A stretch of 64,000 nt of DNA, taken from the NCBI RefSeq assembly GCF_028712425.1, contig NZ_JAQTQD010000009.1, positions 1-64,000 on the forward strand, in the 5' to 3' direction. Source of the stretch: Methanoregula sp. (GTDB taxonomy: Archaea; Halobacteriota; Methanomicrobia; Methanomicrobiales; Methanospirillaceae). The notes beneath the pieces were generated by a model. It did not search any database. It saw only the letters and a list, made by a program, of their open reading frames with translations, and was not told the DNA's origin. Below are positions 28,563-56,583 of this stretch, in pieces (positions within the stretch are counted from its first letter, which is position 1; each line of letters begins with the position of its first letter). The position numbers and the translations under genes were made by a program.

Positions 28563-29156
28563 TCAGGGATTGAACGCTTTTCCAAAGGCCTGGCCTTTAT
28601 TGTATGCGGCATCCAGCAGTTCCGGGTGCCGGGTGACATCGACGAGGGTGTCCATGTCGTTAATGAGAAGCTCGTCTGCGTAGCGGCAGTCAATGATATC
28701 AAAGAACGCCTTTGTCGTGAGCCGGGCGCCGACAAACGTCTCCGGGATCTTCATGCCGGAGATGCAGATGAAGAGCGCCCGCCTTGTCGCCCGTTTCTCA
28801 GCGGGAACGAGCGGTTCTTTCCGGAGATACTTGGCCATGTAGAAGACCTGGCACCGGTCCATGAAGGACTTGAGCTTGCCGGGGATGCCCATGCACATGA
28901 TCGGCATTGCGATGATGATGCCGTCCGCATCCCGGATCTTCGGGTAGAGCTCCTGCATGTCGTCGTCCATGGTGCAGGTCTCATGGTCTTTGCAGAAGAA
29001 CATCTCCTGGCAGTCCTCGAAACAGAGGGTTGCAAGGCTGACCTTCTCGACTGTGCAGCCTGCGTCTTCTGCCCCCTGGAGCGCCCGGTCGAGCAAACGG
29101 GCAGTATTTCCTTCAGTGAGCGGGCTCCCGAGGAACCCGATGATCCGGCCGGCCAT
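28563..29156 (-). CDS. Flavodoxin-fold NAD(P)H/FMN reductase, Isf-like
   Basis: 197 residues with the FMN loop GSPLTEGNTARLLDRAL near the N-terminus and the flavodoxin segment GIIIAMPIMCMGIPGKLKSF. The cysteines (LCFEDCQEMFFC and ETC) are spaced more loosely than the CxxCxxC of the other three paralogues in the window, so cluster binding is less certain. It belongs to the iron-sulfur-flavoprotein/NADPH-dependent FMN reductase superfamily. Its neighbours (rubrerythrin, desulforedoxin-like, AhpD-like) fit a redox-defence role. It is divergent from the zinc-ribbon gene at 29282. Confidence 0.85.
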   Translation of the reverse strand: MAGRIIGFLGSPLTEGNTARLLDRALQGAEDAGCTVEKVSLATLCFEDCQEMFFCKDHETCTMDDDMQELYPKIRDADGIIIAMPIMCMGIPGKLKSFMDRCQVFYMAKYLRKEPLVPAEKRATRRALFICISGMKIPETFVGARLTTKAFFDIIDCRYADELLINDMDTLVDVTRHPELLDAAYNKGQAFGKAFNP

Positions 29157-29250
29157 ACTACAACTGGAGGAAAAGAGGACATATAGTTTTGCAAAAACTC
29201 CCTTTCAGCCCCGTCGGAAACCTACGCCCGTGACTGGCATCAACACAACC

Positions 29251-29260
29251 CATATATATC
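29251..29260 (+). promoter_or_regulatory. TATA box of the zinc-ribbon gene
   Basis: CATATATATC lies about 26 nt before GTG 29282, which would make the transcript leaderless. Confidence 0.4.
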
Positions 29261-29281
29261 ATTCCGCCTGAGTGAAGTTTG

Positions 29282-29521
29282 GTGGTCCTTTTGACCGAAC
29301 AGAAAACCTACAATGCCGGCCAGAAAGTAGGGCCTGGCAAATATGTCTGCATCGACTGCGGAAAAGAGCTGACGCTCGACAAGAGCGAGCAGGACCTCCG
29401 GAAGTGTCCGGCCTGTGCCTGCGAAGAGTACCAGTGCTTCCCGATGACGCACATCCGCCCGGACATCAAGTCCGCGGATGATGTCAAGAACCCGCCCAAG
29501 CGGGGAAAGAGCAACATTTAA
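29282..29521 (+). CDS. Small zinc-ribbon protein
   Basis: About 79 residues with two metal-binding pairs, CIDCGKEL and [11 protein letters not shown], in the first 50 residues and a short basic tail (PPKRGKSN). The layout matches stand-alone zinc-ribbon or rubredoxin-like proteins that precede rubrerythrin/desulfoferrodoxin genes in anaerobes; no enzyme activity is implied. The start is uncertain: TTG 29279, GTG 29282 and TTG 29291 are all in frame, and GTG 29282 best fits the TATA spacing. The downstream desulforedoxin-like gene follows in the same direction. Confidence 0.72.
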
Positions 29522-29624
29522 TCCCATATTTTCTTTTCGCACCGACCGTGTGAACGCTGGTGCCCTGCCGGGAATCGCCGGCATGAAGATGCGTACCAGG
29601 ACCAGGCAGGATCATGGAGACAGC

Positions 29625-29750
29625 ATGGTGAATGTTTCAAAGGAAGGACAGGTCTTCAAGTGCGAGATCTGTGGTAACGTTGTTGTGGTGAAAGAGGCAG
29701 GCGGTGGAGAACTGATCTGCTGCGGCGAACCCATGGTTTTGGAGGAGTAA
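29625..29750 (+). CDS. Desulforedoxin-like protein
   Basis: A 41-residue protein ([18 protein letters not shown], ending [12 protein letters not shown]) with the C-x2-C ... C-C arrangement of desulforedoxin, the small Fe(Cys)4 domain found alone or at the N-terminus of superoxide reductase (desulfoferrodoxin). The ORF track begins 147 nt earlier, but only this ATG has a ribosome binding site (GGAGA) and yields the known domain from its first residue. The superoxide-reductase catalytic domain is absent here. It is followed after 3 nt by the AhpD-like gene and so is probably its redox partner or at least co-expressed. Confidence 0.8.
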
Positions 29751-29753
29751 ACA

Positions 29754-30191
29754 ATGGTAGTGAAGAAAAAAATTGTCAGAAAAACCCCCGCAAAGAAGCC
29801 GGTGGCAAAGAAAGTCCCGGTAAAAAAGCCGGCGGTGAAGGCAGCTGCGGGAAGGGGACTGAAGAAGCTTGAGACGAAGATTGGCAAGGTGCCGAAGTTC
29901 TTCAAGGAACTGACCACGAACGAGCCCGAGATGTTCAAGATGGTGATGCGGTTTGAGGAGCACATCTGGGACGACGGGGCGATCTCGAAGAAGACCAAGA
30001 AGCTGATTGCCATCGCGATCGCTGCGGCCCTCCGGGACCAGCACGCGGTCCGCGCCCAGCTGGCCGGCGCCGCAAACCTTGGCGTCACCAAGAGAGAGAT
30101 CGAGGAGGCACTCCGCGTCACGTTCCTCCTCTCGGGCATGCCCGCCTACGTGTACGGCAAGGCCCAGCTTGATGAAGTTATGAAGAAGTAA
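29754..30191 (+). CDS. AhpD/carboxymuconolactone-decarboxylase-like protein with Lys-rich tail
   Basis: 145 residues. Residues 1-38 are a Lys/Pro/Ala/Val-rich tail (KKPVAKKVPVKKPAVK) like that on PurM in this window. Residues about 40-145 are an all-helical CMD/AhpD domain (SKKTKKLIAIAIAAALRDQH, NLGVTKREIEEALRVTFLL). AhpD peroxidase partners have a CxxC at the position that here reads QHAVRAQL, so the redox cysteines are missing and disulfide chemistry is unlikely by that route. It is 3 nt downstream of the desulforedoxin-like gene and very likely shares its mRNA. Its function is open. Confidence 0.82.
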   Translation: MVVKKKIVRKTPAKKPVAKKVPVKKPAVKAAAGRGLKKLETKIGKVPKFFKELTTNEPEMFKMVMRFEEHIWDDGAISKKTKKLIAIAIAAALRDQHAVRAQLAGAANLGVTKREIEEALRVTFLLSGMPAYVYGKAQLDEVMKK

Positions 30192-30283
30192 CAACCTTTT
30201 TTCGGTTTTTTATCCGGCAGATTCCCCCCTCTTCCGGAATCGCGGGGTTCATCTCTTCCCGGGACAATCCGGTACGGAAGACC

Positions 30284-30937
30284 ATGGCAGAGAAGATCCC
30301 GGGAACAGATGACGCCGGCAAAAAACCGATCCTGACCGATCCGCCCTTCTATCTCAAGGAGTTCGAACAGTCATACCGCTACATCATCGACGAGTACGCG
30401 GTTGCACCAAAAGATATCGCCATCTTCATGCCCTGTGCTGTCAGAAAACCGTACAGTGCAAGCCCGAGCCACCAGTAGATCCGGATGGTCATCTCGCAGG
30501 TCTTTTCAGAGCCCCAGTACCATATCGTCATCTTCGGCACCTGCGGGATCGTCCCTGCTGAGCTCGAGGAGATGTACCCATACGCCCACTACAAGTACAT
30601 GCTCGGGAAATGCAAAGACAAAAAGGTCCTGGACGACTTCCTCCGTATCGAGACCGACCGGGTGGCAGCATACCTGGAAAAGACACGGGACACGTACACG
30701 TACCGGATCGCGTACTGTATCGGGCTCTTCCGCGAGGCGCTCATCCGCGGATCGGAAAAGTCCGGCGTGAAGATCGACCTGCTCCTTCCCACCCGGGACA
30801 TGATCGACAAGATCATTGAGGAGGGGGACTGTGTCTTTGAGGAGGGCAGCCTCTCGATGGGCGAGTACCTGGGTGAGTTCACCGACGAGCTTATCCGGTT
30901 CCGGAATGCGCATTGCGGGCAGGCCCGGAAGGACTGA
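30284..30937 (+). pseudogene. DUF5591-type protein interrupted by one TAG
   Basis: Two ORFs in one frame (30284-30478 and 30485-30937) are separated only by TAG at 30476-30478. Read through, the 217 codons give a complete protein related to the DUF5591 domain found in archaeosine synthase ArcS: MPCAVRKPYSASPSHQ, stop, IRMVISQVF, then GTCGIVPAELEEMYPYAHY. There is no frameshift and codon quality stays good on both sides. Either a recent nonsense mutation, a sequencing error, or read-through explains it; TAG is a normal terminator elsewhere in the window (ZPR1, purM). A second product could start at ATG 30485 but would lack the conserved RKPYS motif. Confidence 0.8.
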
Positions 30938-31002
30938 GCACACACGGATGCCTCCCGACAGCATCCAATTGTTTTTGAACACGGATGACCTAGAACACAG
31001 TA

Positions 31003-31617
31003 ATGACAATCAAGGTCCTTGCCTTTGCCGGGAGCCCGCGCCGGCACGGGAACTCAGAGACGCTGCTCGACTGGGTGCTTGCCCCGATGGCAATGGACCC
31101 GGAGGTAGCAGTAGAGAAAGTCCCGCTCACCGAGGCGAACATCAACATCTGCCGGGGGTGCAATGCCTGCGAGAAGCTGAACAAGTGCGTCCAGCGCGAC
31201 GGGATGGACACCTATCACGATAAAATCGTCGACGCGGATATTATTCTCCTCTCTTCGCCGATCTTCTGCATGGGGATCGCTTCCCTGCCCAAGGCACTCA
31301 TCGACCGGATGCAGGTCTTCCGGTCCCGGAAATTCGTGCTCAAACTCCCGGTTGTCCCACCTGAACGGAGAGGAAAGCGCCTCGGGGTGTTCCTCTCAAC
31401 TGCCGGCCAGGACTGGCCCCATGTCTTCGATGCCGCCATCCCTTCCGTCAAGTGCTTCTACCATGTCATCGACATAAAAGACGCAGACATCAGCTACCTC
31501 ATGATCAATAACGTGGACGAGAAGGGCGCAATCGAGAAACACCCGACAGCAAAAGGCGATGCCGAGAAGCTCGGGAAAGCCATGCTCGCCGAGATCAAAA
31601 CACGGCTCGCTGCATAA
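31003..31617 (+). CDS. Iron-sulfur flavoprotein, tandem copy 1
   Basis: 204 residues. FMN loop AFAGSPRRHGNSETLLDW near the N-terminus and the compact cluster motif CRGCNACEKLNKC (about residues 47-59), which fits CX2CX2CX5C of archaeal iron-sulfur flavoproteins. These proteins accept electrons from ferredoxin and are implicated in reduction of oxygen or peroxide in methanogens. It is followed after 7 nt by a paralogue with nearly the same N-terminus (GSPRRHGN), so the pair arose by tandem duplication and is one transcription unit. Confidence 0.88.
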   Translation: MTIKVLAFAGSPRRHGNSETLLDWVLAPMAMDPEVAVEKVPLTEANINICRGCNACEKLNKCVQRDGMDTYHDKIVDADIILLSSPIFCMGIASLPKALIDRMQVFRSRKFVLKLPVVPPERRGKRLGVFLSTAGQDWPHVFDAAIPSVKCFYHVIDIKDADISYLMINNVDEKGAIEKHPTAKGDAEKLGKAMLAEIKTRLAA

Positions 31618-31624
31618 GGATACC

Positions 31625-32296
31625 ATGACCGTCACTGTTCTCGGGATATCGGGGAGCCCGCGCCGGCACGGAAACACCGAGACGCTGCTCGACAGTTTCC
31701 TGGACGGGGCAAAAGCCGCGGGTGCTGCAGTGGAGAAGGTTGTCTTAAAGGACCTCGATTACTCGGCCTGCCGGGGGTGCAATGCCTGCCACAAGGACGG
31801 CAACTGCATCGTGAAAGACGATGCCGTCCCGCTCTTCGAGAAGATGATGGCCACCGATATCGTGGCGGTGGCATCGCCGATCTACAGCATGGGGATAACG
31901 GCCCAGCTCAAGGGGTTCATCGACCGGGGGCAGTACCTCTGGGCGCGGCGGTTCGTGACGAAAACGCTGGAGTTCTCCCCGGAGCACCTGGCCCGGCACA
32001 AGGGGATCTTCATCTCCACGGCGGGGCAGAACTGGGACCATGTCTTTGACGGGGCATACCCTTCCCTCACGGCCCTCTTCCACGATGCGGGGTTCGACTA
32101 CTATGACAATATCGTGGCCAACAACATGGACGAACACAAGGGGATCAAAAACCACCCGTCGGCCCTGAAAGAGGCATTCGACAAGGGGCAGAACGTCGTT
32201 GCCTTGTTAAAAGATATAAACAAAGAGAGAGGAGTGCTCAGATCAGCATCCAGAGATGGTAGTACGCAGCAACGAGCGTACCGAATGCTGCGATAA
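31625..32296 (+). CDS. Iron-sulfur flavoprotein, tandem copy 2
   Basis: 223 residues from ATG 31625 (the ORF track starts 66 nt earlier, inside copy 1). FMN loop GISGSPRRHGNTETLLD and cluster motif CRGCNACHKDGNC. The middle (ASPIYSMGITAQLKGFIDRG, FISTAGQNWDHVFDGA) follows copy 1 closely. The last 19 residues (basic, ending QQRAYRMLR) are encoded by DNA that also encodes, on the other strand, the end of the M50 protease: the two genes overlap tail to tail by 59 nt. That extra tail may be the result of loss of an earlier stop codon. Confidence 0.86.
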   Translation: MTVTVLGISGSPRRHGNTETLLDSFLDGAKAAGAAVEKVVLKDLDYSACRGCNACHKDGNCIVKDDAVPLFEKMMATDIVAVASPIYSMGITAQLKGFIDRGQYLWARRFVTKTLEFSPEHLARHKGIFISTAGQNWDHVFDGAYPSLTALFHDAGFDYYDNIVANNMDEHKGIKNHPSALKEAFDKGQNVVALLKDINKERGVLRSASRDGSTQQRAYRMLR

Positions 32297-33332: not shown

Positions 33333-34916
33333 TTAGTAATACCGGTAGATCAGCCCGGCAATGCTCCCGAGATCGATCCCTACCGATGTTCCGTTGACTG
33401 TATCCGAGATCGGTACGTTGTTGACGTACTCAGCAAAGACAAGCCGCTTCCCGCTTTTAGTATCAACATAACCGGCAAGACCTTTTGATATCAGGATGTT
33501 CCGGCCTTCATTCAGGGGGTCCGGGTAGCTGTAGGTACCTGTCTTCGCGTATACGCGTCCGCAGGCCGGATTGCCGGGTGCACAGTGCTGGACAGTCGAG
33601 CCATCGACACCGAGGATCGGCTGGGCCCTGATATACTGGTCGGCATACGGCCGCTTGCTCACCAGAGTCAGCAGCTGTGCCACAGCAGACGGTGAGACAA
33701 AGTCCACGCGATCTCCTCCGGCGCCGTCGCCAAGCGACAGGGCAGTCGTATCGAGGCCCAAGGACCGGAGGACCCTGCCTTCTTTCAGCATCCCGTCATA
33801 ATAAGCGGTCTTGTTGTCGGCAAGGGCCAGCAGCATGACGTAGTAGTTGGCATGCATGTTCTGTGAAACCTTGAGTGTCAGCTTCACATCCTCGGAAAGG
33901 GGCGGGGAGGTGAGTTCTGCCACTTTCTTTGCACCTGTGTAACTTCCTTCTGCCGGGAGTTTTACTGCCGGGTTGTCACCGGTCACCGGCGCGGTTACTG
34001 TGATGCCCTGCCGTTGTAAGGCCTCGATGAAGAGCGAGCGGGAGAATGCGGCAGGGTCCAGGATGGCGGCCGACTTGTTGACCGTACCAGCATCAGCGGC
34101 GATCGTCCCGACGAGCGTGATGGTGCCTAGGGGCACTTCCCCGGTATCGAGCAGAGTTTTTGACCCGGCCGGCCCGGTGGTTGCCTGGTTGTCAAATTTG
34201 TACAACGATGTCTGCGGGCGCATGACTACGGTCGGTGCGGTCCCGGGCGCACCCGGCGTAATGCTGAGGTCAACGATGTTCTCGTTGATGACGATCGGGG
34301 AGAGGAGAGCCATGACATCACCCTGGTAATTCTCAAACAGGCGGTCATCGATGACCACATCGGATACCTTCGTGATGCCGGCAGCCTTCACCTGCCGGGC
34401 AAGGTCGTTGAGACCTGATACGGGGTCGGTCTTTGTCAGGAGCGCGCCCGATTCGCTGTGATCGCTGTCTGTGAACTCGATAGTCCCATCGGGAAGCGTT
34501 CTCCCGCCCATGGTCGGGTCGCCACTTGCTACGAGGACGAGATTCCCGTCAAGGTTCCCGTTCGTGTCAGCCTTCCCCACAGCATAGACCGGGGTCTTGA
34601 ACCGGTAGTCCGGGCCAAGGGCTTCAAGCACGGCGGCTGACGAGAAGAGCTTTGTTGTCGATGCCGGGATAAACATCCTGTCGGCATTCTTTGCGTACAG
34701 TGTCTGGCCGGTTGATGGGTCGACAACAATGAGCCCCCAGCTCGCGTGGGAATACTGGAGCGCCGAGGTGATCGCGGAAAGGTCTTTTTCGAACCCGGAT
34801 TGGCTGGTTGTTGCAGGGTTTGCGGTACCGGAGCATCCCGCTGCTGCAATAAGCAGGACAAGCAGGAGGCCCATGGACAAGCCGGTCAGGTACCGGTCGT
34901 GCAGTTCTGGAGACAT
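33333..34916 (-). CDS. PBP4/DacB-like serine peptidase lipoprotein
   Basis: 527 residues, exported lipoprotein (lipobox AAAGC, Cys28). It belongs to the S13 D-Ala-D-Ala carboxypeptidase/endopeptidase family: the SxxK motif is FIPASTTKLFSS (Ser86, Lys89), KTG appears in YAKTGTYSYPDP, and large inserted domains lie between the first two motifs as in PBP4. The second motif, usually DGSGLSR, reads DGAGGDR, so its serine is missing and activity may be altered. Methanomicrobiales have no murein, so the natural substrate is unknown. It is divergent from an M23-like lipoprotein gene across an AT-rich promoter region. Confidence 0.85.
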   Translation of the reverse strand: MSPELHDRYLTGLSMGLLLVLLIAAAGCSGTANPATTSQSGFEKDLSAITSALQYSHASWGLIVVDPSTGQTLYAKNADRMFIPASTTKLFSSAAVLEALGPDYRFKTPVYAVGKADTNGNLDGNLVLVASGDPTMGGRTLPDGTIEFTDSDHSESGALLTKTDPVSGLNDLARQVKAAGITKVSDVVIDDRLFENYQGDVMALLSPIVINENIVDLSITPGAPGTAPTVVMRPQTSLYKFDNQATTGPAGSKTLLDTGEVPLGTITLVGTIAADAGTVNKSAAILDPAAFSRSLFIEALQRQGITVTAPVTGDNPAVKLPAEGSYTGAKKVAELTSPPLSEDVKLTLKVSQNMHANYYVMLLALADNKTAYYDGMLKEGRVLRSLGLDTTALSLGDGAGGDRVDFVSPSAVAQLLTLVSKRPYADQYIRAQPILGVDGSTVQHCAPGNPACGRVYAKTGTYSYPDPLNEGRNILISKGLAGYVDTKSGKRLVFAEYVNNVPISDTVNGTSVGIDLGSIAGLIYRYY

Positions 34917-35043
34917 GACATCAGACTGTATCTCTTCTGCAATCTATCATAAATTATATGAAATGATTTTTTGCCATTTCCGATGAGAAAATTCTATTTC
35001 TGTCGAGAATTATGTCTTTTTTCAGGGATAAACCGATTATTTT

Positions 35044-35064
35044 ATCATTATTTAATTTAATGAT
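35044..35064 (+). promoter_or_regulatory. Palindrome overlapping the TATA region of the M23-like gene
   Basis: ATCATTA-TTTAATT-TAATGAT has perfect 7-bp arms around an AT-rich centre that can act as TATA box. It lies 14-34 nt before the ATG, so a bound protein would block initiation. CAGGTGAT just after it is the ribosome binding site. Confidence 0.45.
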
Positions 35065-35077
35065 CAGGTGATTTATC

Positions 35078-36268
35078 ATGCCCGGCAAGAGCACATTTCT
35101 CTTCATTGTAATCGTCATCGCACTCCTCCTCGCTGCAGGGTGCGCCCAGTCCCAGCAGGCATCCTCAAGACAACCGCCTGCCACGGCGGCTCCGACCGCG
35201 ACAACTCCTTCTGTCACGATCACCGTCCCGTTCGGGCCCATCCCGGTCGAGAGCATGAACGGTGTCAACATTGCCTACGAACTCGAGTTTTCCGGTATGG
35301 AGAACATGTCCTTTGTGCCGGAGAAGGTCGAGGTCATCGACGCAGCCACCGGCAAGGTCCTGTACTCGCCGAACGCTTCGGTACTTGCCAAATTATCCCA
35401 TCGCGCCTCCGTCCCGCCGCCGACAGCAGCCGAGATGCAGAATGGTACCGCCAGGATTACCAAACCCCGGATCTCCGTCTGGTTCGTAATCAGCCCCGAC
35501 GCAGTGCCGGAACGGCTCACGCACCGGGTCACGCTGAACAGGACCGCCGACAATCTCACAGCACTCACCCTTACCGGAGGGGACGTCATGGTGCAAAAGA
35601 ACCTCAAACCGGTTGTTGTCGACTCCCCGGTCCGGGGCCCCGGCTGGGCAGTCCTGGAGACGACCTCCCCTATGGTCCACCACGTTACAAGCCAGATCAC
35701 CATGTCCGGCGTCACCCGCGTCCCCCAGCGGTACGCACAGGACTTCCTCTATCTCGACCCGGTTACCGGGAAGGCATACCATGACGACATGACCATCGCC
35801 CGGAACTTTTACGGCTTCGAAAAAGAACTTTTTGCCGTCAGTAACGGGACCGTTTCCTATGCCCGGGACGGCATCCCGGACATCGAGATCACCACGCAGA
35901 AACCGGCTCCCTCCTTTGACACTGCGCTGGGGAACGGGGTTGTCATTGACCTCGGAAACAACAAGTACGCATGTTACGGCCACATGGTCAACGGGTCCGT
36001 CCGGGTAAAGACGGGCGATACTGTTACGACAGGACAGGTGATCGGCCTGATGGGCAACACCGGCAACTCCGATGCCCCGCACCTCCACTTCCAGGTCATC
36101 ACGGGCAGCTCGTCACCCCTGGGTGGCGAGGGTTACCCCATCGTGTACCGTTCATTCGCCATCACCGGTACATTCGACGAAGATGCTATTGTCGGCATGT
36201 CCTTTGCCACACCAATCCCCCAGCAGGAACGAATCATGGAGAACGATGTCATTGTGAGTTTTCCATGA
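35078..36268 (+). CDS. M23-like (LytM fold) lipoprotein
   Basis: 396 residues: lipoprotein signal (LLLAAGC, Cys22), a Thr/Pro-rich linker, an all-beta middle region, and a C-terminal M23-type domain (about 270-360). The catalytic and second zinc motifs are present (YGHMVNGSVRVKTGD and PHLHFQVI) but the usual first zinc motif HxxxD cannot be found; the matching segment reads ARNFYGFEKELFAV. It may therefore be an inactive binding module. A paralogue with the same architecture is at 55363. The next gene, 59 nt downstream, is another wall-enzyme-like lipoprotein, probably co-transcribed. Confidence 0.82.
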   Translation: MPGKSTFLFIVIVIALLLAAGCAQSQQASSRQPPATAAPTATTPSVTITVPFGPIPVESMNGVNIAYELEFSGMENMSFVPEKVEVIDAATGKVLYSPNASVLAKLSHRASVPPPTAAEMQNGTARITKPRISVWFVISPDAVPERLTHRVTLNRTADNLTALTLTGGDVMVQKNLKPVVVDSPVRGPGWAVLETTSPMVHHVTSQITMSGVTRVPQRYAQDFLYLDPVTGKAYHDDMTIARNFYGFEKELFAVSNGTVSYARDGIPDIEITTQKPAPSFDTALGNGVVIDLGNNKYACYGHMVNGSVRVKTGDTVTTGQVIGLMGNTGNSDAPHLHFQVITGSSSPLGGEGYPIVYRSFAITGTFDEDAIVGMSFATPIPQQERIMENDVIVSFP

Positions 36269-36327
36269 ACCCGCAGGCTAAACACACTGTTGTTCGTGCG
36301 GAGAGAAAATCTAAGGGGGAATCCAGA

Positions 36328-37896
36328 ATGTCAGCGACGTTGCGGTTCCTTCCTGTTTTCCTCGTACTGGCGGCAGTGCTTGCCGCAGGGTGCACACAGC
36401 AGGGGTCTGCCCCGCAGCAGGTAACGGCACCGGCCATCACGCCCGCAGGAGCGGGCCAAGCGGCGGACGCAAGCCAGCTCATCCCGCAGTTCGATGCCTA
36501 TGCAGAGAAGACGTTCAACCAGAGCGGTGTCGTGGGAATGGCGGTTGCCATTGTCAAAGACGACAAGGTCGTCTATCTCCGAACTTTTGGCGTGAAGAAT
36601 GCAACAACGAAAGAACCGGTTGGCCCGGACACCCGGTTCCAGCTTGCCTCCATCTCCAAATCCGTGACCGGGACCATGATCGCGGAGATGGTCGGGAACG
36701 GCGAACTCTCGTGGGACGATACGATCGTGTCGGTGAATCCCGCGTTCCGGCTCTCCGACCCGTACGTCACAGAGCACGTCACGTTCCGGGATCTTATGTC
36801 GCACCGCTCGGGCCTGCCGGAGTACGGTGCCGACGATCTCCAGAATGACCTGAAGTACTCCCGGCAGGAGATCATGGACCGGCTCCCGTACCTCGGACTT
36901 ACCGGCGCGTTCCGCTCATCGTACGCCTATTCCAATATCGGGATTACGATCACGGGAGTGACTGCGGCGATGAAAGCCAAAAAAACCTATGAGGATCTCG
37001 TTGCCGAGCGGATCTTCACTCCGGCTGGTATGTACAACACGAGCGCCCGGTTCAGAGACTTTATCGCATCACCAGACCGCGTGGAGCTGTACCCGATGCA
37101 AGAGGGGACTCCGGTTGCCGGGCCACCCGTGGACGATGACATCAACTCTCCGGCCGGCGGAGTGAGTTCCACGATCAATGACATGGTACGGTACGCCCGC
37201 CTGCAGGCAAATGGTGGTTCCCTTGACGGGAAACAGGTTGTCAATGCCAGCACCCTTAGGGAGTCACACTCGCCCCAGTACATCAAGAGTTATTCCGGGG
37301 CCGCGATGACCGGCTCCGGCATGGGCTGGAACACCTTCCTGGACGGCGGCCGCAGTCGTATTGAGAAGGACGGTATGTTCTCCCAGGGCACAGCCACGAT
37401 CATCACGGTCTGGCCCGAAGAGAAGATGGCGCTTGTTGTCTTAACCAACAAATTCCCGGAAGGCAATGTCGTTGCAGGGAGTCTCAGCAATGCCTGGAAC
37501 AACCTGTATTACAACGGCAGGATAGGGAAGGACTGGTATGCCGTGGCACAACAGGAACTGCAGGCATTTTTCGACAGCATGGCACACGAAACGCAGCAGA
37601 AACCGGTGAACCCGCAGCCACACCGCGACCTGAAGTATTACACCGGGTCCTACACGAAGGACTATTACGGTACGGCGAGGGTCGTGGAAGAGTCAGGTAT
37701 TCTCCAGGTGTACCCGCCGGGCCACAGCACGACGCCGTTCGCCCTTGAACCATATGACGGCGACGCGTTCCGCGAAGAGATCTCGGGGGTCCTCGTGAAG
37801 TTCAGCGCCGGAACCGGTGCAAATGCCACAGGTGTCTGGTTCACGCGCTACGAGGCGCCCGGGCGGAGCGGGGCATTTATCCGGGCCGGCATGTAA
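36328..37896 (+). CDS. Beta-lactamase-family serine hydrolase lipoprotein
   Basis: 522 residues from ATG 36328, preceded by GGGGGAA. Lipoprotein signal VLAAVLAAGC (Cys22). The class C beta-lactamase/DD-peptidase-like domain spans about 50-400: SxxK in LASISKS (Ser108, Lys111), YxN in YAYSNIG, and the family block FRDLMSHRSGLPEY. A C-terminal beta-barrel-like domain of about 100 residues follows (DLKYYTGSYTKDYYG), as in many esterase or peptidase members. The ORF track extends 357 nt upstream through the M23 gene in another frame; that part is not used. The substrate is unknown; peptide or ester hydrolysis outside the cell is likely. Confidence 0.87.
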   Translation: MSATLRFLPVFLVLAAVLAAGCTQQGSAPQQVTAPAITPAGAGQAADASQLIPQFDAYAEKTFNQSGVVGMAVAIVKDDKVVYLRTFGVKNATTKEPVGPDTRFQLASISKSVTGTMIAEMVGNGELSWDDTIVSVNPAFRLSDPYVTEHVTFRDLMSHRSGLPEYGADDLQNDLKYSRQEIMDRLPYLGLTGAFRSSYAYSNIGITITGVTAAMKAKKTYEDLVAERIFTPAGMYNTSARFRDFIASPDRVELYPMQEGTPVAGPPVDDDINSPAGGVSSTINDMVRYARLQANGGSLDGKQVVNASTLRESHSPQYIKSYSGAAMTGSGMGWNTFLDGGRSRIEKDGMFSQGTATIITVWPEEKMALVVLTNKFPEGNVVAGSLSNAWNNLYYNGRIGKDWYAVAQQELQAFFDSMAHETQQKPVNPQPHRDLKYYTGSYTKDYYGTARVVEESGILQVYPPGHSTTPFALEPYDGDAFREEISGVLVKFSAGTGANATGVWFTRYEAPGRSGAFIRAGM

Positions 37897-55362: not shown

Positions 55363-56583
55363 ATGTCAGCGAAACTCCAGCTCCTTATCCTCATGCTCGC
55401 ACTGACTGCAATCCTCGTTGCAGGTTGTACCCAGCCGGCTCCCGCTTCAGGATCCACGGCCACGGCCCTGAACATGACCGTTCCGTTTGCACCGGTCCCG
55501 GTCCCTGCCGGGAGCGGGATGCAGCTTGCCTATGAACTCGAACTCGTCCCGGCAGATGGCAGGGTGCCAGTTGTCGAAAAGGTAGAAGTGTTCGATGCTG
55601 CTACCAAAACTGTCCTTTTCACTGCAGACGGGGACCTGCTTGCTGCGCTCTACCACCCGGCTGCCGTCCCACCCCCGACACCCGCGGAGCTCCAGGATGG
55701 GACGGGAAAAGTTCCCATGCCCCGCGTATCTGTCTGGTTTGTCGTTAAGCCGGATGCCGTACCGGACCGGCTTGTCCACCGGGTCACCCTGAACCGTTCG
55801 GCTTCCGGCCTGCCTCCGGAGACAGTCACCGGCGGTGAAGTTGCTGTGCGTAAAGATGCTGCACCGGTTGTCATCGGGGCCCCGATGTCCGGCCCGGGCT
55901 GGATGGCCATGGAGACAACATCGCCCTTCACCCACCACTTCTCTGCCCAGATCACGATAGGCGGCGTGACCCGGGTTCCCCAGCGGTACGCCCAGGACTG
56001 GATCCTTCTGGACCCGGTAACAGGAGCGGCCGCGAAGGGCAATTTCACGCTTGCCCGTAACTATTTCGGGTTCGGGAAGGAACTCTATGCCGGGGCGGAC
56101 GGGACGGTTGTCGCAGCCCTGGATGGCCTGCCGGATATCGAGACGATCTACTCGGCCCCGCCGGCAACCCTTGACACTGCTGCCGGAAACTTCGTGATCA
56201 TCGATGTCGGGAACAAGAAATACGCATGCTATGCCCACATGGTGAACGGGTCCGTCCGGGTGAAACCCGGCGATGTTGTCAAGGAAGGGCAGGTGATCGG
56301 TCTCATGGGTAACAGCGGGAACTCCGATATCCCGCACCTCCATTTCCAGGTCGTGACGGACACGCCGTCATTCCTGGGTGCAGAGGGATATCCCCACGTG
56401 TTCCGCTCGTTCGATTCCCAGGGCGGGGTCCACATCAACCGGGCCATAGAACGGCAGGCCAGCCCCGGCTATACCATGACACAACTCTGGTCAGAGATGG
56501 GAGAATTCGCGGAATATCTGAAAACTCCGGTCCCCCGGCAGAACATGCTGCCGGAGAACAACGAGATCGTCAGGTTCCCCTGA
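55363..56583 (+). CDS. M23-like (LytM fold) lipoprotein, paralogue of 35078
   Basis: 406 residues: lipoprotein signal (AILVAGC, Cys22), Thr/Ala-rich linker, beta-rich middle and C-terminal M23 domain. It follows the protein at 35078 along its length (for example VSVWFV, RVPQRYAQD, and YACYAHMVNGSVRVKPGD). HLHF is intact, but the first zinc motif is again missing: the segment reads ARNYFGFGKELYAGADG with no histidine. An extra C-terminal segment (about 40 residues) is not shared with the paralogue. The gene stands alone, with the fold-back repeat 270 bp upstream. Confidence 0.82.
   Translation: MSAKLQLLILMLALTAILVAGCTQPAPASGSTATALNMTVPFAPVPVPAGSGMQLAYELELVPADGRVPVVEKVEVFDAATKTVLFTADGDLLAALYHPAAVPPPTPAELQDGTGKVPMPRVSVWFVVKPDAVPDRLVHRVTLNRSASGLPPETVTGGEVAVRKDAAPVVIGAPMSGPGWMAMETTSPFTHHFSAQITIGGVTRVPQRYAQDWILLDPVTGAAAKGNFTLARNYFGFGKELYAGADGTVVAALDGLPDIETIYSAPPATLDTAAGNFVIIDVGNKKYACYAHMVNGSVRVKPGDVVKEGQVIGLMGNSGNSDIPHLHFQVVTDTPSFLGAEGYPHVFRSFDSQGGVHINRAIERQASPGYTMTQLWSEMGEFAEYLKTPVPRQNMLPENNEIVRFP

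Follow-up and report, generated by a model that had tools for sequence, protein, structure and literature searches.

The 64,000-nucleotide stretch of DNA analysed here (the window), which is part of contig 41 of the Methanoregula-like genome G000, encodes three neighbouring lipoproteins, a PBP4-type (S13) peptidase, an M23 metallopeptidase and a PF00144 serine hydrolase, in a methanogen that has no murein of its own. A second M23 lipoprotein is encoded 19 kb from this trio. It is on balance probable that these proteins work as D,D-peptidases, tethered to the membrane, on the murein of bacteria or on fragments of it. The complete trio is rare, whereas the combination of M23 with a PF00144 enzyme recurs among related genomes, as adjacent genes or as one fused gene.

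The lipoprotein genes and their products

The features of the locus are listed in Table 1. Each of the four genes encodes a signal peptide with a lipobox-like AGC at its end. The PBP4 and M23 genes are divergent, with 161 bp between them, and the serine hydrolase gene follows the M23 gene in the same direction after a gap of 59 bp, its start being the internal ATG at 36328 and not the start of the long ORF. The profile matches, the leaders and the gene order confirm the first-pass annotation, which had described adjacent PBP4-like, M23-like and beta-lactamase-family lipoproteins and an M23-like paralogue at 55.4 kb. The two M23-domain genes of the window are the only ones in the whole G000 genome, which has two PF00144 genes and one S13 gene. 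Just upstream of the cluster (28563-32296), several genes for NADPH-dependent FMN-reductase-like flavoproteins were seen by eye to lie close together.

Table 1. Positions of the lipoprotein genes and the divergent spacer in the window
Feature	Position	Strand	Length and basis
S13/PBP4 D,D-carboxypeptidase/endopeptidase-type lipoprotein (predicted)	33333-34916	-	527 aa; PF02113, TIGR00666, motifs
Divergent intergenic spacer with two conserved AT-rich blocks	34917-35077	.	comparison with G181 and G192
M23 metallopeptidase lipoprotein	35078-36268	+	396 aa; PF01551, alignments, AlphaFold, Foldseek
PF00144 (class C beta-lactamase / S12 peptidase superfamily) serine hydrolase lipoprotein	36328-37896	+	522 aa
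M23 lipoprotein paralogue	55363-56583	+	406 aa; PF01551 (61 bits), tree

Genus-level relatives of G000 are on record as Methanoregula or Methanoregulaceae. In the closest relative, G181 (L190), a near-complete genome in a single contig of 2.8 Mb, the PBP4 and M23 genes are likewise divergent, in the same order, and M50, LigT and DsbD genes flank them as in G000; on this ground bin contamination was rejected. The pairwise omega values against G181 are 0.15 for PBP4, 0.16 for M23 and 0.19 for the serine hydrolase, and the three genes are thus maintained by purifying selection. The M23 protein is 77% identical to its G181 counterpart, and the neighbouring genes are 84-94% identical. No match to FtsW/RodA or to a Mur ligase was found in the G000 genome, whereas the positive-control genomes gave matches; own murein is therefore excluded as the substrate, and the earlier description of the host as a methanogen without murein is borne out.

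The spacer contains two AT-rich blocks that are conserved when compared with G181 and G192, one on the PBP4 side (34948-34970) and one on the M23 side (35027-35065). These are likely, judging from the conservation, to be two back-to-back archaeal promoters, one per gene, and not the single shared promoter region that had been proposed. The palindrome reported for this region did not hold up either: an inverted repeat as good as the best one (ATCATTA-N7-TAATGAT, 35044-35064) turns up in 29% of spacer sequences randomised with a first-order Markov model, and the repeat is present in the close relative G181 but absent in G192. Its role as an operator was rejected, as it is at chance level.

The PBP4 protein matches PF02113 (Peptidase_S13) as a full-length domain with 229 bits (cut-off 22.8) and the NCBIfam PBP4 equivalog TIGR00666 with 184 bits (cut-off 107.8). 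The three catalytic motifs SxxK, SxN and KTG are all present (PASTTK, SQN and KTGT), and among solved structures those nearest to it belong to two DD-peptidases, 2wke and DacC of B. subtilis (1w5d). The gene product is predicted to be an S13 D,D-carboxypeptidase/endopeptidase.

The serine hydrolase matches PF00144 with 204 bits and has intact SxxK, YxN and (K,H)xG motifs (SISK, YSN and KDG), with a weak C-terminal DUF3471 match just below the cut-off (28.6 bits). Its best NCBIfam equivalog is AmpH, at 94 bits far under the cut-off of 266. Assignment as a true class C beta-lactamase (AmpC) was rejected (88.5 bits against an NCBIfam cut-off of 415), as was true beta-lactamase identity in general, every match to such models being far below its cut-off.

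The M23 protein matches PF01551 above the cut-off (59 bits) and consists of an N-terminal beta-rich domain followed by a LytM-type domain, in which the HxH motif and the catalytic histidine are present (H302, H335, H337). Canonical M23 enzymes have an HxxxD motif that supplies the first two zinc ligands. This motif is absent here, and H202 and D222, which lie 20 residues from each other on either side of a hairpin in the AlphaFold model, are put forward as the putative zinc ligands because of their invariance. In the alignment, H202, D222, H302, H335 and H337 are kept in 38-39 of the 39 archaeal and in all 38 bacterial sequences, and the lipobox cysteine is nearly invariant across the archaeal sequences. 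Probably, H202 and D222 correspond to the same zinc ligands, with a hairpin inserted between them, a layout shared with the bacterial relatives. The AlphaFold model that was kept, calculated with 75 input sequences, has a pLDDT of 96.2 and a pTM of 0.93; a run with 10 sequences (pLDDT 43.5) was discarded. In the profile search against solved structures, only the HxH half was aligned. When the model was searched with Foldseek, LytM-type domains were found, including those of EnpA (TMt 0.62), LytM (0.60), StM23 (0.63) and ShyA; none of the PDB entries matched the protein over its full length, and the beta-rich domain at the N-terminus had, as such, no counterpart among the hits. A search for similar folds in viruses yielded nothing beyond tail proteins and generic M23 endolysins.

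Distribution of the families and pairing of M23 with PF00144

Full-length searches gave M23 matches in 50 of 232 Methanomicrobiales genomes and 17 of 40 genera, a count that takes in a few partial or generic M23-domain-only matches. The family also occurs in Methanocorpusculum, Methanoculleus and Methanocalculus; most Methanomicrobiales, among them many members of the same genus, do not have it. PBP4 is present in 27 of the 232 genomes. Among 394 Halobacteriota sampled outside Methanomicrobiales, a long but partial match was found in one genome (G452), the remaining matches being to generic M23 domains. The archaeal M23 proteins are related along their full length to uncharacterised bacterial proteins, about 30-35% identical and mostly from Acidobacteriota, Actinomycetota, Gemmatimonadota and others. 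Since all 39 sequences from archaea fall in a single clade (support 100*), apart from the 38 bacterial relatives, the family entered or arose a single time in these archaea and has been patchily retained, and a recent bacterial transfer was rejected on the same ground. The M23 gene of L079, a contig assigned by binning to a Syntrophobacterales bacterium, falls within the archaeal clade, which probably reflects a binning error or a transfer. The M23 gene of G156 (L078/L199, G156:C89) is split by a stop, and a split PF00144 gene lies upstream of M23 in G149 (L196:5367-6753); these are signs of decay and turnover.

The first-pass annotation had proposed conservation of the cluster as its check, and lack of conservation with scattered gene positions in relatives as its refutation. 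The outcome differs for the trio, for which this refutation holds in part, and for the M23-PF00144 pair, for which it does not. The exact trio is found in only two genomes, G000 and G192 (L191), and in the latter, at a contig edge, it is reordered, with PBP4 divergent from the serine hydrolase and M23 following. In G181 the slot of the serine hydrolase holds a C45 autoproteolytic hydrolase (NF040521, 133 bits), and the orthologue of the serine hydrolase (86-87% identity) is found some 1.4 Mb away from PBP4-M23, which shows that the linkage is not obligatory. In G205 (L192), PBP4 is followed by a transglutaminase-core lipoprotein and then by a serine hydrolase.

In contrast, of the 26 genomes with both M23 and PF00144 genes, 8 have them fused or as immediate neighbours, where about 0.06 are expected by random placement. 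This is more than 100-fold above expectation (p ~3e-15 if the genomes are taken as independent, a value that overstates the case, as the genomes are related). The two genes are direct neighbours in G000, G012, G015, G022, G149, G150 and G219 and are fused in one ORF in G022 and G187, G022 being counted with both forms; G192 (the trio) and G156 (one gene between) are further cases. The fused BL-M23 genes encode 824 aa (L043) and 773 aa (L087), and both domains were confirmed by Pfam. In the tree, the M23 paralogue of the window has among its closest relatives the M23 half of the G022 fusion (79% identical). All pairs were seen in family f1 (Methanoregulaceae) and none in other families. The PF00144 partners are spread over several separate clades, and the tree shows at least nine label changes; this speaks in favour of pairing having happened more than once. 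In addition, the first 47 residues of the PF00144 protein of G150 (L200:8986-10419) are an M23-type leader, 32 of the 47 being identical to the M23 protein of L045, an apparent exchange of leaders between the two genes. The recurrence side by side or in one protein suggests that the two enzymes work together.

Other lipoprotein and hydrolase genes recur in these neighbourhoods. The transglutaminase-core lipoprotein is found at L192:4729-6252, L049:12078-13586, L053:9295-9741, L198:2660-4207 and L057:5036-6556; it lies near PBP4 in three genomes, adjoins M23/PF00144 in G219 and occurs on contig 18 of G000, about 2 kb from the second PF00144 gene. C45 autoproteolytic acyltransferase/hydrolase genes lie next to M23 in G181 (L190:10998-12203) and beside PF00144-M23 in G150 (L197:4741-6072).

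Among bacteria, the three families are found within 7.5 kb in two Acidiferrales loci (L093, L099), which are close kin and effectively one event. The order is S13, a fusion of PF00144 with PF01427 (D-Ala-D-Ala dipeptidase), an amino-acid permease and an M23 gene of the same full-length family. By analogy, this neighbourhood, the only contextual pointer to a substrate, points to D-Ala-D-Ala murein peptides. PF00144 matches occur in 4 of about 46 bacterial M23 loci; a general linkage in bacteria was rejected, this number being judged to be no more than would be expected of these PF00144-rich genomes.

Candidate substrates and rival explanations

In the proposed mechanism, the three enzymes and the M23 paralogue, tethered to the membrane and extracellular, would jointly dismantle the peptide part of bacterial peptidoglycan. 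M23 would cut the stem-peptide cross-links, PBP4 would provide a D,D-endo/carboxypeptidase step and the PF00144 enzyme may remove or cleave D-amino-acid-containing ends, while the lipid anchor would hold the enzymes on the archaeal surface, for action on contacting bacteria or on arriving murein fragments. What the sequences show is the gene content, the catalytic motifs, the lipoprotein leaders, the purifying selection, the absence of murein synthesis and the recurrent M23-PF00144 linkage and fusion; the substrate, this division of labour and the benefit, by attack or by feeding, are our inference. Bacterial murein or its fragments are considered, with modest confidence, the best remaining substrate, because the catalytic motifs are kept in a host without murein and because of the S13 and PF00144-D-Ala-D-Ala-dipeptidase neighbours in Acidobacteriota. 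The patchy presence is also in agreement with this, as it resembles that of weaponised peptidoglycan hydrolases (PMC12352652), and the predatory PBP4s of Bdellovibrio are a precedent for PBP4s that act on the wall of another cell (PMC3276566). The murein reading is weakened by the lipid anchor, which is ill-suited to a diffusible weapon, by the lack of a peptidoglycan-binding domain in the cluster proteins (Pfam search), by the restriction of the full trio to two genomes and by the existence of PF00144 and M23 members with other substrates. Because of the anchor, enzymes that work on contact or process fragments are more plausible than a diffusible toxin, and the Acidobacteriota cluster with its permease would, by analogy, favour feeding. 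Intracellular muropeptide use via an S66 L,D-carboxypeptidase was rejected, none being found, and this absence also counts against the murein reading. Attack on bacterial neighbours had been suggested in the first-pass annotation; its substrate, bacterial murein peptides, is the best supported one, while the evidence fits both attack and scavenging. That members of Methanoregulaceae have a dedicated, lipid-anchored multi-enzyme module for degrading murein peptides, made up of M23 and PF00144 (fused in some cases) together with S13, and employ it on contact with bacterial partners, either as a weapon or for feeding on the wall, is a more tentative proposal, which we regard as possible but doubtful.

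The rarity of the exact trio could also mean that there is no functional unit and that independently useful secreted hydrolases have gathered in a hot spot of lipoprotein genes. The slot beside M23 does vary (the C45 hydrolase in G181, a COesterase upstream in G015, an alpha/beta hydrolase downstream of the G022 fusion), and the M23 copies of Methanocorpusculum, Methanoculleus and Methanocalculus do not adjoin PF00144 genes. This explanation is nevertheless unlikely, given the strong excess of M23-PF00144 adjacency, involving several PF00144 clades, and the single-protein fusion in two genomes. Processing of the archaeon's own surface, such as the S-layer glycoprotein, pilin or other surface glycopeptides, is held to be more unlikely still, although lipoproteins sit under or in the S-layer, the M23 and PF00144 folds are able to act on non-murein substrates and the genes are under purifying selection. 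With M23 in 50 and PBP4 in 27 of the 232 genomes, neither belongs to core envelope maturation, and the S-layer trimming suggested earlier is hard to square with this as core processing. The sheath trimming suggested with it fits poorly, as Methanoregula lacks sheath proteins and is sheathless (PMC11576556) and the M23 family is also found in genera beyond the sheathed ones named there. The Acidobacteriota neighbours, moreover, indicate D-Ala-D-Ala chemistry. Least probable, and by our estimate quite improbable, is detoxification, in which the serine hydrolase (and the C45 hydrolase of G181) would destroy an antibiotic or other small amides or esters and the peptidases would be incidental. It is in favour of this reading that Methanosarcina has a class C-like enzyme with nitrocefin-hydrolysing activity (PMC7697635) and that NCBIfam describes the C45 family as acyltransferase/hydrolase. 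However, the beta-lactam target is absent in archaea (PMC7697635), the true beta-lactamase models score far below their cut-offs, and the coupling to M23 would be left unexplained.

Comparison with known enzymes

Within the set of papers searched, no previous account of these genes was found for Methanomicrobiales. Should the enzymes act on murein, attack or scavenging would be added to hydrogen transfer among the ways in which methanogens interact with their syntrophic neighbours. The hydrogenotrophic methanogens for which the contact module is proposed are not known to exploit bacteria; the fused BL-M23 proteins are a simple test object.

With S13 PBP4/DacB D,D-peptidases, the PBP4 protein shares the full S13 profile match and the three catalytic motifs, but it is an archaeal lipoprotein with no own murein to maintain. 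The M23 protein has the predicted C-terminal fold and the catalytic histidines in common with LytM-, ShyA- and lysostaphin-type endopeptidases; it differs in its His and Asp, 20 residues apart and not in an HxxxD motif, and in its N-terminal domain, without a full-length PDB match. The serine hydrolase shares fold family and motifs with the PF00144/S12 peptidases (AmpH, PBP4B, D-aminopeptidase, class C beta-lactamase) but falls below every NCBIfam equivalog cut-off shown. The Acidiferrales locus has the three families, with an M23 of the same full-length family; its host, however, has its own murein, its PF00144 domain forms one protein with a D-Ala-D-Ala dipeptidase and the locus includes an amino-acid permease.

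The closest known systems are the archaeal peptidoglycan hydrolases, which can kill bacteria (Strock 2025, PMC12352652). Such enzymes, for example the M23 enzyme Woldo of Halogranum salarium, are likewise archaeal, secreted, of M23 type, patchily distributed and found in a murein-free host (PMC12352652). That screen took only modular proteins, defined by a catalytic and a cell-wall-binding Pfam domain in one protein, which the cluster proteins are not, and its main text mentions neither Methanomicrobiales nor carboxypeptidases nor lipoproteins (PMC12352652). The cluster proteins differ further in having lipoprotein leaders and in the pairing of M23 with PF00144 and, here, S13. Common wetland and digester methanogens reliant on bacterial partners would, to judge from this locus, have a second class of such enzymes, which is tethered to the surface and not modular. 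As far as its sequences indicate, the cluster is most likely of a known kind, that of the archaeal peptidoglycan hydrolases, in a non-modular, lipid-anchored, multi-enzyme variant that lies outside the Strock 2025 screen.
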